64,000 nucleotides of DNA from Mesotoga infera (GTDB taxonomy: Bacteria > Thermotogota > Thermotogae > Petrotogales > Kosmotogaceae): assembly GCF_900157305.1 (NCBI RefSeq), contig NZ_LS974202.1, positions 186,001 through 250,000 on the forward strand, given 5' to 3'. Of this stretch, positions 35,221 to 59,188 are shown in pieces (the first letter of the stretch is position 1; the number at the start of each line of letters is the position of its first letter). Below the pieces are notes generated by a model. That model searched no databases, was not told where the DNA came from, and saw only the letters and a list, made by a program, of their open reading frames with translations. The translations under genes and the position numbers were made by a program.

Positions 35221-35245
35221 CAAAACCGGGGAATCTATCCCCGGT
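35221..35245 (-). terminator. Intrinsic terminator of the sugar ABC operon
   Basis: An 8-bp stem (ACCGGGGA/TCCCCGGT) at 35225-35245 with a 5-base loop is followed on the minus strand by TTTTG. Its upstream arm overlaps the stop codon of the permease gene. Confidence 0.75.
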
Positions 35246-36075
35246 CACTTTTCTTCTTTCAAGCTGAAGCCGCTCATGAAAGTCTTCTGGAAAATCAAAA
35301 GCATTACGAGAGGTACTATCATGGCCGTTATCGTTCCTGCCATTATGATGTTCCATTCCGCAGCCTGGGCTTCACTGGCCAGCAACATCTTGATACCGAT
35401 CTGGACGACTCTCATGTCGTTTGTGGTCGTTATTATGAGAGGCCATAGGTACTCGTTCCAGATGAAGTTGAACTCTATCAGAAAGAGCGCACCCATGTTG
35501 GTCTTTGAAAGGGGAAGAAGGACGTTGAAAAGGAACCTCATAGGTCCGGCGCCATCTATTCTCGCCGCGTCGGAGAGCGATGTAGGGACGGTAAGAAACA
35601 ACTGGCGGAAGAGAAGTGTCCCCGTCGCGCTGGCGAAGAAGGGTATCGTAAGAGCATAATAAGTGTTTATCCAGTCGAAGCTCTTCATAAGTTCATAAGT
35701 CGGCAAAATCCTTACAGGAAGCGGAAGCATGTGTGTTATGAGTATCATGCCAAAAAAGAAGAACTTTCCCCTGAAGTCACCGAAGTAAGTGAAGGCAAAG
35801 GCTGCTAAAATCGCAAAACCTATTTTTCCTGTGGCAACGACGAAGGCGGTAAAACCGCTGTTGAGCATGAGTCTGCCCATGTTCACAGTCTTCCAGGCCG
35901 TTACGTAGTTTTCAAATATATTCTTTCCAGGTATGAAACGGGGTGGATAACTGTAGGATTCGGCTGCCGTGAGTGTGCTCATGCTAAAGGCGTAGTAGAT
36001 TGGGAACATCACCACCAGCGCCATAAAAGTAAGCACCAGGTATATCACCAATTTTTTAAGGTTTTTCTTCTTCAT
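35245..36075 (-). CDS. Sugar ABC transporter permease (MalG/UgpE type)
   Basis: A 276-residue inner-membrane permease of the carbohydrate-uptake-1 class, with six predicted helices starting LVIYLVLTFMALVVMF and the cytoplasmic EAA loop PTSLSDAARIDGAGPMRFLFNVLLP. It pairs with the permease at 36095-36976 to form the channel for the binding protein at 37042. No ATPase gene is in the cluster. It is the last gene of the operon and the stop codon forms part of its terminator. Confidence 0.92.
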   Translation of the reverse strand: MKKKNLKKLVIYLVLTFMALVVMFPIYYAFSMSTLTAAESYSYPPRFIPGKNIFENYVTAWKTVNMGRLMLNSGFTAFVVATGKIGFAILAAFAFTYFGDFRGKFFFFGMILITHMLPLPVRILPTYELMKSFDWINTYYALTIPFFASATGTLLFRQLFLTVPTSLSDAARIDGAGPMRFLFNVLLPLSKTNMGALFLIEFNFIWNEYLWPLIITTTNDMRVVQIGIKMLLASEAQAAEWNIIMAGTITAMIVPLVMLLIFQKTFMSGFSLKEEK

Positions 36076-36094
36076 GCTTATCCATCCTCATCCA

Positions 36095-36976
36095 TCATCC
36101 GTAAAAGACTTTTCTTTCTGTGTATTTAAACTGGAGGACTGTCAGAATAGCGACAAAAATGAAGAGAACGACTGATTGCGCAGAGGCAAAACCGGTGTTC
36201 ATGCTTATGAAGCCGTCCCTGTAAAGCTTATATACTAGCAGCTCGGTTGCGTCGCCCGGGCCGCCTTTAGTCATAATATCTATAATTCCAAAGACGTCAA
36301 AAAAAGCGTACAGCATGTTCATGATCAGAAGAAAGAAGGTTGTCGGCGAAAGGAGCGGCAGTATGATCTTAAAGAATTTCGTCACGCCTGAAGCACCATC
36401 TATAGAGGCAGATTCTAAAAGTTCTTCGGGAATTGCCTGCAGTCCGGCCAGATAGAAAATTATGTTGTAGCCCATCATCTTCCATGAAGCGGCTATGACA
36501 ACTACCGCCAGAGCAAGGTTTCTATCGGTCATCCAGTTGATTCCTATCCCCGTTATACTTCTTATTATATAAACTATCGGACCACTCGACGGGTTGAACA
36601 TAAGCGCCCATATGGTCCCGGCAATGGCCGGTGAGATGGCGTAGGTCCAGATGAAAAAAGTCCTGTAAATGAAGAGACCGCGCAGCTTCTGGTTCAGCAA
36701 TGCGGCTATAACAGTTCCCAGCGACAGGCCGATGAGAACCACCAATACGGCAAAGATAAGGGTAATTATTAGGCTGTGCAGATAGGCTGACGACTGAAAG
36801 AGTCTGGTGAAGTTCTCGAAACCAACGAAGAATTTTCTATCGCCGAAGGGCGAAACCCTGAAGAAGCTCATGTATATTGATTGAACGGTCGGTACGATGA
36901 GAAAGATAATGACTATAACAATCGAGGGAGAAAGTAAGATGTACGGAAGCACTCGATTGGGAAATCTTCTCTGCAT
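36095..36976 (-). CDS. Sugar ABC transporter permease (MalF/UgpA type)
   Basis: A 293-residue permease with six predicted helices and the EAA loop IPEELLESASIDGASGVTKFFKIILPLL. The ATG at 36976 was chosen since AGGCGGTG lies about nine bases ahead; an upstream GTG at 36988 is possible. It sits 65 nt downstream of the binding-protein gene, with the reverse-order partner permease 19 nt after it. Together they form a CUT1-type importer of the inner membrane. Confidence 0.92.
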   Translation of the reverse strand: MQRRFPNRVLPYILLSPSIVIVIIFLIVPTVQSIYMSFFRVSPFGDRKFFVGFENFTRLFQSSAYLHSLIITLIFAVLVVLIGLSLGTVIAALLNQKLRGLFIYRTFFIWTYAISPAIAGTIWALMFNPSSGPIVYIIRSITGIGINWMTDRNLALAVVVIAASWKMMGYNIIFYLAGLQAIPEELLESASIDGASGVTKFFKIILPLLSPTTFFLLIMNMLYAFFDVFGIIDIMTKGGPGDATELLVYKLYRDGFISMNTGFASAQSVVLFIFVAILTVLQFKYTERKVFYG

Positions 36977-37041
36977 TTTTTCTTTCACCGCCTGAAAGTA
37001 GATTAAGGGGAGGGGAAAACCCCTCCCCGTCGAAAAGCGAA

Positions 37042-38337
37042 TCAATCACCGTACAGTTGAATGTACTCTCTCAATATATTGTTGCACTCTTTTGCCGCAT
37101 CATCGAGAATCCTCTTGGCTTCCTTTTCGTAGTCCTTTCCCTTGTACTGAACGGCCTTTTCGACAGCCGAATCGACTACGTCCCTTATCGCAACGAAATT
37201 ACCCAGTCTGACCCCCTGTGCTTCGGGAATGTTTGATCCGCTGAGAATCTGCAAAAAGGCGGTCAGGTGATTTGGCTGAGAAGCGAACCAACCTTCATCC
37301 ATGAGCAGCTTGACGGTTGTGTTGCTTGAGGGGAAGTAACCGGTACTCTTATGCCATTGCAGCGAGATTTCGGGTCTTATGATGTACTTCAGGAATTCCC
37401 AGACGGCCTTGTTTTCAGCCTCGGACTTTCCCTTGAGAACCCATATCGTGGCGCCTCCTATAACTGAGTTACCTCTGGGGTACCCTTCCATTCTCGGCAG
37501 AAAGGAAGTCCCGACGTTGAAAGAGGCTGTCTTCTGGATGGAGCCAACCGAGGAAGTCGACTGGATCAACATAGCAACCTGCCCTGTGAGGAAAGCCGTG
37601 TTGGCGCTGTATTCTCTTCCACCATAGACGAAGACGTTATCTTGCGCCCACTTCATCCACTCGACGAAAACTTTCTGGCCGAACTCTCCGTTGAATAGAA
37701 CCTGGGAAGCCTTGGCCTTTCTACCGTTTTCATTGTTGGCATAGAATTGCGCATGAGTTGCGTGCATCTGCTCGAAAACCCATGCCGGCCAGCCAAAAGA
37801 TATACCTCCTTGAGACGCACCTGACTGTACTATCTTTTTGCCCATTTCGTACAGCTCGTCGAAGGTTGACGGTGGCTTGTTGGGGTCAAGCCCGGCCGCC
37901 GCGAAAATGTCTTTGTTGTAGTATAGGATGGCAGTCGAGGAGTTGAAGGGCATAGAGTAGAGTTTACCGTTCACCGAATAGTAGTTCAGGATTGGAGTGA
38001 CAACGTCTCCCCAATCAAAACCCGGCTCGGCAAGCTGATAGACCGGAAGAATAGCCCCACTGTCAAGCATGGTCTGAAGCCCTACTTCGTAAACCTGTAC
38101 GATGTGGGGATGTGTTCCAGTTCTATAAGCGGCTATCGCTTTGGTGAGAGTTTCGGCGTAACTCCCGGTGAATTGAGCAACCACTTCGATCTCGTTCTGG
38201 CTTTCGTTGAATCCCTTGACAATGTTATCAACGGCGGTTAGGTTGCTTCCGCTCATCGCGTGCCAGAAAGTGATTGTTGTTTTGGAAAAGGCCAAGACCG
38301 AGAGAAGAACCAGAACAACGACTAGAACCTTTTTCAT
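37042..38337 (-). CDS. Sugar ABC transporter substrate-binding protein
   Basis: A 431-residue extracellular solute-binding protein (family 1). It starts MKKVLVVVLVLLSVLAFSKTTI, a signal peptide, followed by TFWHAMSGSN, the classic N-terminal strand of this family. The AAGGAGG site lies directly ahead of the ATG at 38337, so the longer in-frame start at 38508 is rejected. It binds an unknown sugar. First gene of a three-gene operon (binding protein, MalF-type, MalG-type). A TATAAT at 38384-38389 on the minus strand is a likely -10. Confidence 0.92.
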   Translation of the reverse strand: MKKVLVVVLVLLSVLAFSKTTITFWHAMSGSNLTAVDNIVKGFNESQNEIEVVAQFTGSYAETLTKAIAAYRTGTHPHIVQVYEVGLQTMLDSGAILPVYQLAEPGFDWGDVVTPILNYYSVNGKLYSMPFNSSTAILYYNKDIFAAAGLDPNKPPSTFDELYEMGKKIVQSGASQGGISFGWPAWVFEQMHATHAQFYANNENGRKAKASQVLFNGEFGQKVFVEWMKWAQDNVFVYGGREYSANTAFLTGQVAMLIQSTSSVGSIQKTASFNVGTSFLPRMEGYPRGNSVIGGATIWVLKGKSEAENKAVWEFLKYIIRPEISLQWHKSTGYFPSSNTTVKLLMDEGWFASQPNHLTAFLQILSGSNIPEAQGVRLGNFVAIRDVVDSAVEKAVQYKGKDYEKEAKRILDDAAKECNNILREYIQLYGD

Positions 38338-38383
38338 ACAAACGCCTCCTTGTCGAAAAATGGGTTCGATGGATCGCAAAATG

Positions 38384-38389
38384 ATTATA
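38384..38389 (-). promoter_or_regulatory. Probable -10 of the sugar ABC operon
   Basis: TATAAT on the minus strand, 47 bases ahead of the binding-protein start codon. The -35 match is weak. A short CGAT-GG-ATCG repeat (38367-38376) overlaps the expected transcription start and could be an operator. Confidence 0.4.
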
Positions 38390-38404
38390 ACACCCACTAC
38401 TCTC

Positions 38405-38433
38405 GATAAAAAACCTTCAGCATGAGCTGAAGG
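38405..38433 (-). terminator. Intrinsic terminator after the 36-aa peptide gene
   Basis: CCTTCAGC (38414-38421) and GCTGAAGG (38426-38433) form an 8-bp stem with a 4-base loop, followed on the minus strand by TTTTTTATC. It lies between the peptide gene and the binding-protein gene and would separate them into two transcripts, or act as an attenuator for readthrough. Confidence 0.8.
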
Positions 38434-38476
38434 GTAATAGGACCTTTTGAAGATGTAAGGAAATGTATACGGTCTT

Positions 38477-38587
38477 TTATTTTGCGCTTCTCTTGATTCT
38501 CCTGTCACCTACTCCTTCTATTATTTCTACAAATACTCTGTCAACCAACAGAATCACGAGAAAGCAGAATCCAAAGAATTTTCTCAT
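38477..38587 (-). CDS. Small hydrophobic 36-residue membrane peptide
   Basis: This ORF is too short for usual gene callers. A strong AGGAGGG site lies seven bases ahead of the ATG at 38587. The peptide is hydrophobic at its N-terminal half (MRKFFGFCFLVILLV), then acidic, then basic at the end (RRIKRSAK), so it should insert in the membrane once. It has its own terminator at 38405-38433 and a possible -10 (TATAAT on the minus strand at 38659-38664) and so is an independent unit directly upstream of a sugar ABC operon. Function unknown; a regulatory or transporter-associated peptide is possible. Confidence 0.5.
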   Translation of the reverse strand: MRKFFGFCFLVILLVDRVFVEIIEGVGDRRIKRSAK

Positions 38588-38962
38588 AATCGATCCCTCC
38601 TGAAAATTGTATTATTTTTACTAGATACTCAAATAATTTTATCTATTAGTACATATATATTATAGTGGATCACAATAAATTGTGTTACGCAGATATTTAA
38701 TCGATGAAAAGAAGATAATTGATCAATTTTACTCATAAAATGGGTTTATTGAATCAAATAATGTGATTGTTGAATTCAGTATTTAAAAATACACATCTGG
38801 GAATTCTCAAAAGGCAAGATAGCGTGGATGTATCACCGGGAAACGCTTTAAAGTTGCGCGGAGGGCAACCATAACTTCTGGAAAAAACCAATCGCCACTT
38901 ATCGATATTCCGACTTTATGGTCTATAATTGAGCAATCTAGTCTGAAAGGAGGGTTTGATTT
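38588..38962. other. 375-bp intergenic region between divergent genes
   Basis: AT-rich gap with no ORF worth calling. It contains a possible -10 (TATAAT, minus strand, 38659-38664) beside a CACAAT-AA-ATTGTG inverted repeat (38671-38684), a GC-rich block at about 38827-38873 that may fold (GTTGC/GCAAC pair), and a TATAAT at 38924-38929 on the plus strand ahead of the degV gene. Confidence 0.5.
38671..38684. promoter_or_regulatory. 14-bp inverted repeat, operator candidate
   Basis: CACAAT and ATTGTG with a 2-base centre. It lies 7 bases upstream of the probable -10 for the 36-residue peptide gene, in the spacer of that promoter, so a bound protein would block RNA polymerase. Confidence 0.35.
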
Positions 38963-39799
38963 ATGAAAATAGGCATAGTCACAGACAATACGTGCAACCT
39001 TAAACCCGGCGATATTGAGAAGCTGGGAGTAAATATAGTATCTCTCTACGTCAACAGGTCCGGTAAATACACCAGAGCAATAGATCTCGATCTCGATTCC
39101 TATTACAACGAGCTAGGGTCTGTCGCAGAACTTCCAACCACTTCGCAGCCCTCTCCCCAGGATTTCATGGAGGCCTTCGGCAGGGCTCTACAAAATTTCG
39201 ATGTTCTCGTTGTTCCTTTGATTTCAGGTAAGCTGAGTGGCACTTTCGTTTCGGCGAGCATAGCGTCAAGGGATTTTGACATGCCCATTCACGTCATCGA
39301 TACTTTGCTGACGGAAAACGGTCTGGGAATGCTGGTTAAGAACCTGTCGAAAATGATCGCGAACGGAAGCGATACCGATGCTCTTGTCAAGTATGCCACC
39401 GATTTTCATAAGAAAATCCGCACAATCTTTTCTGTGGATGACCTGAACTATCTCTACAAGGGCGGAAGAATCGGAAAGGCTAAAGCCCTTATGGGAAACC
39501 TTCTGAAAATGAAGCCCGTTTTACAGCTTGAAGATGGTGAATTGAAACCCGTCGAAAACATCAGAGGCAACAAAAAACTCCTCCAGAGTATGGTGGATCA
39601 CACCCTGAAAGGTAAGGATCCGGCCGATCTCAAGAAAGTTGAAATCGTATACATAAAGAGAAATGAGGATGCCGAAGAATTGAAGAGAATACTGCTGGAA
39701 AGGGTGCCGAATATCGAAGTTGAGATCTCGTTGATCGAACCTGTGATAGGCACGCATCTAGGTCCGGAGGGGATCGGTATAATCAGCGAATGGGCATAG
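38963..39799 (+). CDS. DegV family protein (fatty-acid-binding, FakB-like)
   Basis: A 278-residue DegV family protein with the TTSQPSPQDFMEAF segment and LISGKLSGTFVSA, conserved in the fatty-acid-binding members. In bacteria that use FakA, a DegV/FakB protein presents the fatty acid for phosphorylation. The fakA-like gene at 1993-3657 is therefore a probable partner, although the two are 35 kb apart. AAAGGAGGG precedes the ATG by a few bases. Confidence 0.9.
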   Translation: MKIGIVTDNTCNLKPGDIEKLGVNIVSLYVNRSGKYTRAIDLDLDSYYNELGSVAELPTTSQPSPQDFMEAFGRALQNFDVLVVPLISGKLSGTFVSASIASRDFDMPIHVIDTLLTENGLGMLVKNLSKMIANGSDTDALVKYATDFHKKIRTIFSVDDLNYLYKGGRIGKAKALMGNLLKMKPVLQLEDGELKPVENIRGNKKLLQSMVDHTLKGKDPADLKKVEIVYIKRNEDAEELKRILLERVPNIEVEISLIEPVIGTHLGPEGIGIISEWA

Positions 39800-39899: not shown

Positions 39900-40970
39900 G
39901 TGAAAACGATCGATAGAGTCGAAACAAGAAAGGGAAGAATCTACGATTTTTTACCGGGGATATACAGACTTACAAACAACGAAAGATTGGTCGAACATTT
40001 CAAAGAACTGACGCCGGGCTACAGACCCGTCGGCGAGATAGCCGAATGGGTAAATATCACTCTAAAAAAGCTGCCTGAGCCGATACTGGAAAAGATGGAT
40101 CTATACTTCAACTGGCAAACACCACTGGCCATGAGATTGAGTCCGATCATAAGTGAAAATTGTCTCAAGACGGTTGACGAGTTCTTTAAAGCCCTGCGAG
40201 CAGTATCTCCGGAAGATCTGCTGAGGGATTTCCTCCTGATCGGTCTTGGTCCGAGGGCTGTAGGCTTCGATGAGAGTATAATCTCGCAGATGCTTGGCGA
40301 CCAGCGAAAAGCACTAGTTTTTTTGGTCGAGAAAGCCGTGCTGACACCCCATCAGAAAGCCGTTATGTTGGATTTCTTCTCCAATCCAATTTCAATGAAA
40401 GATGACTTTGTCTATCTTCTGGAATGGTACGCCGAGCACATTTTCCCCACAATCCCCTTCGATGAAGGTGCTCTGGAAGAGAGCGAAAGAGATCTGATCC
40501 TAAACCTCCAGTCTAGAGGTGAGGATTACCTTCTTAAGCTCATAGACAATATGCGTTACGATGAGCTGGAGGACAGAAGGAAGATACTGCTGGCCATCTC
40601 GTATTTCGTGGAGAACGCCCAGGGTGGGGTTTTCCATCCAAAAGCGAAAAATGACCTCTTCGTCGTAGGATACAGATTCGTGAATTCAGTTCTCGAAGAC
40701 GATCCCCTTAATCAGGCCGCGGCGAGGTACAGGGCTATGGGAGAACCCAGACGTATAAAACTTTTGCGAATGCTTTTTGGAAAGCGCTACACCGGCTATG
40801 ACATTTCCAGAAAGTTGAAGATGTCCAATGCAGAAGTTACCGAGACTTTCAGCAATCTGATCGCCTGCAACCTCATAAAGACCTACCGCACAAAAGAAGG
40901 GGTTTACTTCACCGCCGACCGCGATGAAGTGATAGATCTGTTGATAGAACAGCTTTCAGAAAGCGACTAG
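39900..40970 (+). CDS. ArsR-like winged-helix regulator with long N-terminal domain
   Basis: A 356-residue protein with a large N-terminal region of unknown function and a C-terminal winged helix. The wing region MGEPRRIKLLRMLFGKRYTGYDISRKLKMSNAEVTE is typical of ArsR-type DNA-binding domains. The GTG at 39900 follows a GGGGGTG-like site (GACTGGGGGTGTACAG). Related proteins are putative transcription factors of uncharacterised target. It converges on the molybdopterin gene with a 23-base gap. Confidence 0.75.
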   Translation: MKTIDRVETRKGRIYDFLPGIYRLTNNERLVEHFKELTPGYRPVGEIAEWVNITLKKLPEPILEKMDLYFNWQTPLAMRLSPIISENCLKTVDEFFKALRAVSPEDLLRDFLLIGLGPRAVGFDESIISQMLGDQRKALVFLVEKAVLTPHQKAVMLDFFSNPISMKDDFVYLLEWYAEHIFPTIPFDEGALEESERDLILNLQSRGEDYLLKLIDNMRYDELEDRRKILLAISYFVENAQGGVFHPKAKNDLFVVGYRFVNSVLEDDPLNQAAARYRAMGEPRRIKLLRMLFGKRYTGYDISRKLKMSNAEVTETFSNLIACNLIKTYRTKEGVYFTADRDEVIDLLIEQLSESD

Positions 40971-44807: not shown

Positions 44808-45650
44808 ATGAATATTCTTGCATCAATTGAGCATTTTGTCCAGCTACGCTTTGGTGATTTCTTCTCTTCAATAGAGGCCTTCTATCTCAAGGATATACTG
44901 ATTCTTATACAGGGAATACTGGAGCTTGGCCATCATTCGATCTCCTCAATAGCTAGAGACCCTTTGAACAAGGTGGCTCATACAACCCTTACCAGGTTTT
45001 TCAACGGTAATCCTAACTTCTGGAAGAACCTTGAGAAGCTGATCCAGAAGGTTATTCTCTCAACCTCTTCTGAGAAGATGATACTGGTTGTGGTTGATAC
45101 TCAACTGGCCAGAAGGAGTAAGAAGATACCTTCCACCACTCCGACGTACGATCACAATCAGAAGCGGTATTGCCAGGTACAGGTTCTCCTTACCGTTGGT
45201 AGAGTCAGCGATGGTTTCTTTCCTCTGGAGATGATGTTCTCGAATTCGAATGGAGGTCCCACCAAGATTGAAAGACTTATAGATTGGCTGAAAGAGAACG
45301 AGATAAGGGATGCAGTACTTCTTGGAGACTCCTGGTACACCAACAGCCATGTGGTAGAGTCCTACTTCAAGACTGCTAAACAACACTTCTCGCTCGGTAA
45401 AGCCGCACTCTCAACTGAAGATGGCCACAAGCATTGGACTATCCTGGTTATTCTTGCCTATCTGATTTTCAATGACCTTCACCGATTTATTCTCGAGAAG
45501 ACTAAGTCAGAAACAAAGAGGTACAAAGTGTTCGAAACAATCCAAAGAGCGATCTCCATGCTCAGGTCTTTACTCCTGGAACAGGTCAAAATCGACTTCC
45601 ATCTCCTCGATTCCTGTTTCCGATCCTTTTCTCTTCTTCCTTTCTATTAA
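44808..45650 (+). pseudogene. DDE transposase with internal deletion (IS4/IS701-like)
   Basis: A 280-codon ORF whose N-terminal half and C-terminal third match a DDE transposase of the IS4/IS701 type. First catalytic Asp is Asp97 (VVVDTQ), second Asp174 (LGDSWYT), and Glu184 sits 7 residues before Lys191 (E-SYFKTA-K), the E-(6)-K signature. Only 10 residues separate the second Asp and the Glu, whereas the family has an insertion of roughly 100 or more. The copy therefore appears to have lost an in-frame internal block and cannot be active. The ORF is otherwise open, suggesting a recent deletion. Confidence 0.75.
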
Positions 45651-58963: not shown

Positions 58964-59188
58964 ATGCCGTTTTATATGTATGAATGCAAAGATTGTGGTA
59001 AGACAACGGAAGCCTTCCAGAAAATGTCAGATGAGCCGTTAAAGGTCTGTCCATCGTGCGGGGGACATCTAAAGAAATTGTTAAGCAATGTAGGAGTAGT
59101 CTTCAAGGGCGGTGGATATTATTCGACCGATTCCAAGAAAACTTCGAGTTTGAGCAGCACTTCAACGGTTCCTTCGAAAAAAGACTGA
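58964..59188 (+). CDS. FmdB-type zinc ribbon protein
   Basis: A 74-residue zinc-ribbon protein with YECKDCGK near the N terminus and VCPSCGGHLKKLL, giving two CxxC pairs for a structural zinc, and an S/T-rich tail. It belongs to the FmdB/CxxC_CXXC_SSSS family, putative regulators or adaptors. I took the ATG at 58964, which follows AAGGAGGG. It converges on tsaD. Confidence 0.8.
   Translation: MPFYMYECKDCGKTTEAFQKMSDEPLKVCPSCGGHLKKLLSNVGVVFKGGGYYSTDSKKTSSLSSTSTVPSKKD

Follow-up and report, generated by a model that had tools for sequence, protein, structure and literature searches.

We examined a small ORF of 36 codons in the window, that is, the whole stretch of 64,000 nucleotides analysed here, which comes from a genome consisting of one contig of 2,965,660 bases (G000). 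The ORF lies on the minus strand and runs from 38587 to 38477, from ATG to TAA (MRKFFGFCFLVILLVDRVFVEIIEGVGDRRIKRSAK). It is situated upstream of a transporter operon on the same strand, coding for a substrate-binding protein and two permeases, and diverges from a DegV-family gene. The features of the locus are given below together with their state in a relative, G003 (MAG UBA1373).

38963-39799, plus strand: DegV-family gene
38683-38688, minus strand: weak -35-like hexamer GTAACA (identical place in G003, 18-nt spacer)
38671-38684, minus strand: operator-like palindrome CACAAT-TT-ATTGTG, 14 bases, seen by eye (arms CACAA/TTGTG kept in G003)
38659-38664, minus strand: -10 hexamer TATAAT from a two-hexamer scan (TATAGT in G003, place kept)
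38595-38601, minus strand: Shine-Dalgarno sequence AGGAGGG, 7-nt spacer to the ATG (38603-38585 identical to G003)
38477-38587, minus strand: putative small protein gene, 36 codons (open frame kept, dN 0.074, dS 0.565, conservative replacements)
38408-38433, minus strand: intrinsic terminator of the small gene, 8-bp stem, 4-nt loop, T6 (scan and folding; kept in G003)
38384-38392, minus strand: TGTTATAAT, extended -10 promoter belonging to the transporter operon and not to the small gene (TGYTATAAT in orthologous regions)
37042-38337, minus strand: UgpB-like substrate-binding protein gene (SBP_bac_8, profile searches), first of the transporter operon

The original prediction had placed the ORF directly ahead of a sugar ABC operon. 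The transporter operon is indeed directly downstream; however, the word 'sugar' could not be established, since the binding protein, which came closest in NCBIfam to UgpB (sn-glycerol-3-phosphate), scored 317 bits against a curated cut-off of 411. The minus-strand stretch 35245-38337 holds the UgpB-like binding protein and the two permeases. No ATPase was seen among the neighbouring genes examined, so that a shared one is likely to be encoded elsewhere.

Other genes of the window were also noted. After the DegV gene, at 39900-40970 on the plus strand, a 356-aa protein is encoded in which an ArsR-like HTH is confined to the C-terminal region (residues 274-347; HTH_metalloreg of NCBIfam at E 6.2e-8, which is under the curated cut-off). 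A DDE-type transposase-like gene (DDE_5) was found at 44808-45650 (plus), and another short gene, preceded by AGGAGG and encoding a 74-aa zinc-ribbon protein (Zn_ribbon_8), at 58964-59188 (plus). The block 38815-38905, between the small gene and DegV, was rejected as an RNA structure as it folded no better than shuffles.

The sequence ahead of the start codon is TCAGGAGGGATCGATT-ATG, with the AGGAGGG separated from the ATG by 7 nt. We observed 18 starts in the window that were preceded by AGGAGG and opened frames of at least 15 aa, and 11 of these were gene-length frames. The small ORF ranked fourth among the 18 in 15-residue hydrophobicity (2.39), after three gene-length frames (3.20, 3.15 and 2.74). 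The predicted transcript folds pair part of the Shine-Dalgarno sequence, which counts against reading the locus as a gene.

We further evaluated the coding potential by comparison with G003, which has a copy of the ORF at the same locus (83% identity, E 1.2e-16, no indel). The two ORFs differ by 15 substitutions in 108 bases, ten at third codon positions, three at first and two at second. Six residues are replaced (L14V, I22M, V26I, I31V, K32R and A35V), all with BLOSUM62 scores of 0 to 3, and the dS resembles that of the flanking genes (0.47 for the binding protein, 0.58 for DegV). As few replacements were obtained in 1.1-2.0% of neutral simulation runs, and a BLOSUM replacement cost as low in 0 of 20000. 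Mismatches between the genomes amounted to 0 of 19 bases from the Shine-Dalgarno sequence to the start, 23.3% after the stop and 21.6% in the middle of the intergenic region. Within the ORF 13.5% of the bases were mismatched, as against 7.6-12.6% in the promoter stretches on either side; since these stretches are conserved as well as the ORF, raw DNA conservation is by itself no proof of coding. The substitution pattern of the two genomes, on the other hand, points to purifying selection on the short ORF as a protein. We regard the coding evidence as good, if not final, since the sequences available for the test are two and differ at 15 sites.

We also considered the opposite strand, where a plus frame of 46 codons (38463-38603) could be the gene and the minus frame its shadow. 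The plus frame is free of stops in G000 and G003 alike (dN 0.068, dS 0.485), can be extended in G003 to 110 codons from a TTG and, when codon position is not corrected for, was better kept than neutral (1.3-1.5% of runs). However, its ATG is GTC in G003, it has no usable Shine-Dalgarno sequence (an AAGGAA abuts the ATG), no plus-strand terminator-like site follows it, and its last codons are unchanged exactly opposite the minus-strand Shine-Dalgarno sequence and start. When the codon-position pattern was held fixed, a replacement cost as low was reached in 0.9% of simulations for the minus frame and in 40.5% for the antisense frame. We therefore set the antisense frame aside: the start is not conserved, a usable Shine-Dalgarno sequence is missing and the replacements are not conservative beyond chance. 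A gene on that strand appears highly improbable. Its openness probably reflects shadow conservation, the two frames having their third positions in common.

The pairing of an early with a late part of the ORF in a stem could be accounted for by a small regulatory RNA, acting alone or alongside the peptide (dual function). A long hairpin inside the ORF was predicted in both genomes, with a z of -2.40 for a 91-nt piece of G000; yet a 124-nt piece of G003 gave only -0.95, and among codon shuffles preserving the protein sequence 4.8% (G000) and 11.8% (G003) had an equally good fold, so the structure is not clearly beyond codon shuffles. In the window no Rfam match reached the gathering score (the three obtained up to E 5 fell short of it), and the substitutions follow the pattern of a protein. 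It is very doubtful that the locus acts through such an RNA.

The signals around the minus frame were examined in the same two genomes. The promoter of G003 reads GTAACA-18-TATAGT, with the hexamer places and spacer as in G000. The scan of 37400-39600 found four promoter-like sites, a number no higher than in shuffles (mean 3.1), and for this reason the promoter call for the small gene rests on the conservation in G003. The final two bases of GTAACA belong to the palindrome, the rest of which lies inside the -35/-10 spacer. As a 15-base pattern, allowing at most one mismatch, it occurs a single time, at this promoter, both in G000 and in G003. A regulon for the palindrome was rejected on this basis, and, the pattern being unique in both genomes, we can only infer that it is a repressor site.

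The terminator stem-loop extends from 38433 to 38414, its stem starting 44 bases beyond the final base of the stop codon, and TTTTTT follows it. The fold had an energy of -13.8 kcal/mol, not equalled by any of 200 shuffles, in a 36-nt piece cut around the stem. In G003 the terminator has 10 pairs (-17.3 kcal/mol in a 51-nt piece), and the pairing is kept, with one A-U pair changed to G-C in a compensatory manner. Terminator-like sites as such were not in excess in 37400-39600 (one found, shuffle mean 2.2). These observations bear out much of the original prediction. Its coordinates for the ORF (38477-38587) were right, and the strand, which it had left unstated, is minus; the AGGAGGG at good spacing and the rho-independent terminator proper to the ORF were found as it had described them, the possible -10 and inverted repeat that it had seen upstream are kept in part in G003, and the frame, whose loss in relatives would have refuted the prediction, is conserved in G003. 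Taken together, the conserved frame, Shine-Dalgarno sequence, promoter and terminator make it very likely that the small ORF is a translated monocistronic small gene.

The original prediction had also offered a leader whose terminator attenuates the operon. An ORF of this length, with a terminator after it and a transporter gene next downstream in the same orientation, is indeed the arrangement expected of a leader peptide of this type. The operon, however, has an extended -10 of its own downstream of the terminator. TGYTATAAT was kept in all eight orthologous upstream regions long enough to show it, six of them without the ORF, and in eight of nine aligned sequences TGTTATAAT or TGCTATAAT was found about equally far from the start codon (the ninth, from G007, is too short). 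The two-hexamer scan had missed this promoter because it has no good -35. In a study on Thermotoga maritima, extended -10 promoters are given as those of highest information for 63% of transcription units (PMC3636130). No terminator-like site was seen ahead of the -10 in the six upstream regions that lack the ORF, over a scan of about 400 bases. Four of them (G001, G002, G004 and G009) have a weak terminator-like hairpin of 5-6 bp just after the -10, in the operon's own leader, while the other two (G005 and G006) showed no terminator-like site in that scan. These four hairpins, each followed by T-rich sequence, sit at the likely 5' end of the ugpB-like mRNA (1457-1471 in L021 and L022, 1458-1470 in L023, 1459-1471 in L030).

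In a fold of the 251-nt transcript, of a terminator and a competing antiterminator only the terminator stem appeared, and the fold as a whole did not stand out from shuffles (z -0.57; 49 of 200 did as well). Inspection by eye revealed no stretch of a single regulatory amino acid in the peptide. As far as the sequence goes, this is not an operon that lacks its own promoter and depends on reading through a leader terminator, and we consider attenuation very improbable. The operon promoter lies past the terminator and is conserved even in genomes that lack the ORF, which speaks for separate units; by this mark a neighbouring gene can be told from an attenuator. Two transcription units, with the terminator closing the small one, would be the simplest reading. 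Some read-through from the small gene into the operon is possible.

We then looked at the occurrence of the peptide. In a search of 61 genomes (G000 and 60 relatives), strong matches were obtained in G000 and G003 only, with ten more weak matches in nine genomes including G000. A two-row profile run against 103 genomes of the phylum again gave G000 and G003, plus seven weak matches. None of the weak matches inspected (nine of the ten from the peptide search, all but L010; L040-L044 and L006 of the seven from the profile, the seventh, L045, having two stops inside) was a short ORF with a start and a Shine-Dalgarno sequence. One weak match (L011) was the signal-peptide end of a 412-codon frame. 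A candidate paralogue in G000, one of the ten weak matches of the peptide search (C1:773514; 39% identity over part, E 0.024), was rejected, being a 64-codon frame with no ATG, GTG or TTG before the match. At the DNA level, the intergenic region was found in two of ten genomes of the genus, G003 matching at 84%. A genome contig collection gave 552 candidate stretches, of which one, the G003 locus, was confirmed (G000 itself is possibly not included), and none of 74 candidate stretches for the peptide in viral contigs was confirmed.

The flanking genes are more widespread. The binding-protein gene matched at E 1e-60 in nine of the ten genus genomes, five more distant matches (40-41%, L025-L029) being excluded from the orthologue count. 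Its upstream region was covered in eight genomes, namely G000, G003, G001, G002, G004, G005, G006 and G009, and in the last six no such ORF was present among the Shine-Dalgarno-preceded frames of the 800 bases upstream. DegV matches were obtained in eight of ten (G000, G003, G001, G002, G004, G005, G008 and G009), and again no such ORF lay upstream of DegV in the last six. Seven genomes thus lack the small ORF at one or both flanks. The G007 contig stops 43 bases short of the binding-protein gene, and DegV had no match in G007 at that threshold. In G004, the binding-protein gene matched in two separate pieces (L024 and L030; contig C11 32843-34196), so it is broken or misassembled there. As orthologous transporters occur without the ORF in six genomes, the transporter is unlikely to be an obligate partner of the peptide, and the proposal of a transport-associated small protein found no support, although some association with the transporter is possible.

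The hydrophobic part of the peptide comprises residues 5-23 (mean Kyte-Doolittle 2.29) but contains D16, R17 and E21; with three charged residues within the stretch, a full membrane span is uncertain. AlphaFold2 gave a single helix over residues 2-35, with a mean pLDDT of 84 for residues 1-10 and 91 for 11-20; the model was made from a two-row alignment, has a pTM of 0.40 and falls to a pLDDT of about 50 at the C-terminal end. The helix is thus confident only over about the first 20-25 residues, and the charged, net-basic C-terminal tail is of low confidence. Apart from a single weak hit with the copy from G003 (E 0.022, in the Pfam, NCBIfam and PHROGs searches), the peptide had no match in Pfam, NCBIfam, PHROGs, PDB sequences, phages or plasmids, which agrees with its original description as an uncatalogued small peptide of membrane type. 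It is likeliest to be a lineage-restricted, small membrane-associated protein with a putative role only, and looks to be an ordinary, overlooked small protein and not a switch for the transporter.

The size and shape of the peptide (a hydrophobic N-terminal half and a charged tail in 36 aa), its own promoter and terminator and its restricted lineage would also suit the toxin of a type I toxin-antitoxin pair, which, like TimP, would damage the membrane when its antisense RNA is lost. The gene, however, is single-copy apart from the weak partial match above, the peptide belongs to no protein family searched, and on the plus strand the scans showed neither a promoter-like site inside the gene nor, anywhere in 37400-39600, a terminator-like one. 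With no plus-strand signals by consensus scan, no antitoxin RNA is visible, although such a scan can miss one, as it missed the extended -10 of the operon. We consider a toxin unlikely.

Together, these studies lead us to believe that the locus is probably a genuine, independently transcribed and lineage-restricted small gene making a membrane-seeking peptide. The sigma-A-type promoter with its operator-like palindrome (38688-38659) would drive a short monocistronic mRNA, of about 240 nt if it starts near 38652. The strong Shine-Dalgarno sequence would load ribosomes to make the 36-residue peptide, and the intrinsic terminator would stop transcription ahead of the UgpB-like transporter operon and its separate promoter. 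The hydrophobic N-terminal half may insert in, or lie on, the inner membrane, leaving the net-basic tail at the C-terminus. Like other small membrane proteins, the peptide would most likely attach to some larger membrane protein or directly to the membrane, and the factor that binds the palindrome would determine when. A more speculative idea, to which we give distinctly less weight, is that the peptide is an orphan membrane microprotein that arose recently under a regulated promoter of its own, is confined to one branch of the genus and tunes an envelope process there; its gene was possibly born in the DegV-ugpB intergenic region once both genes had become neighbours. Among the Mesotoga papers listed in our literature searches, no title or opening of an abstract concerned this gene, and none of the titles was on small proteins of this bacterial group. 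The analysis adds a well-delimited, probably translated small gene, short enough for the usual annotation to skip.

The locus can be compared with three known systems. Attenuating leader peptides of the trp/his type consist of a short ORF followed by a terminator, upstream of a biosynthetic operon. The short ORF, terminator and operon occur here in the same order, but a -10 belonging to the operon itself lies past the terminator, there is no regulatory codon run, and the ORF and this terminator are absent from six orthologous operons. TimP of Salmonella is an inner-membrane toxin of 38 aa that is kept in check by the antisense sRNA TimR (PMC7667032). Our peptide resembles TimP in length and in having its hydrophobic residues mainly at the N-terminus, and differs in that no antisense RNA signals were seen by consensus scan and there was no Rfam match. 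CydX, KdpF, AcrZ, MgtS and Prli42 are examples of single-helix small membrane proteins. The peptide differs from these in that no sequence similarity was found to any profile searched and in that its gene does not stand together with one for a potential partner. Like them, it is short (36 aa), with one predicted helix, a hydrophobic N-terminal half, a charged tail, its own Shine-Dalgarno sequence and a length below that usually annotated. Bacterial single-helix small membrane proteins have been described as a class (PMC10903887).
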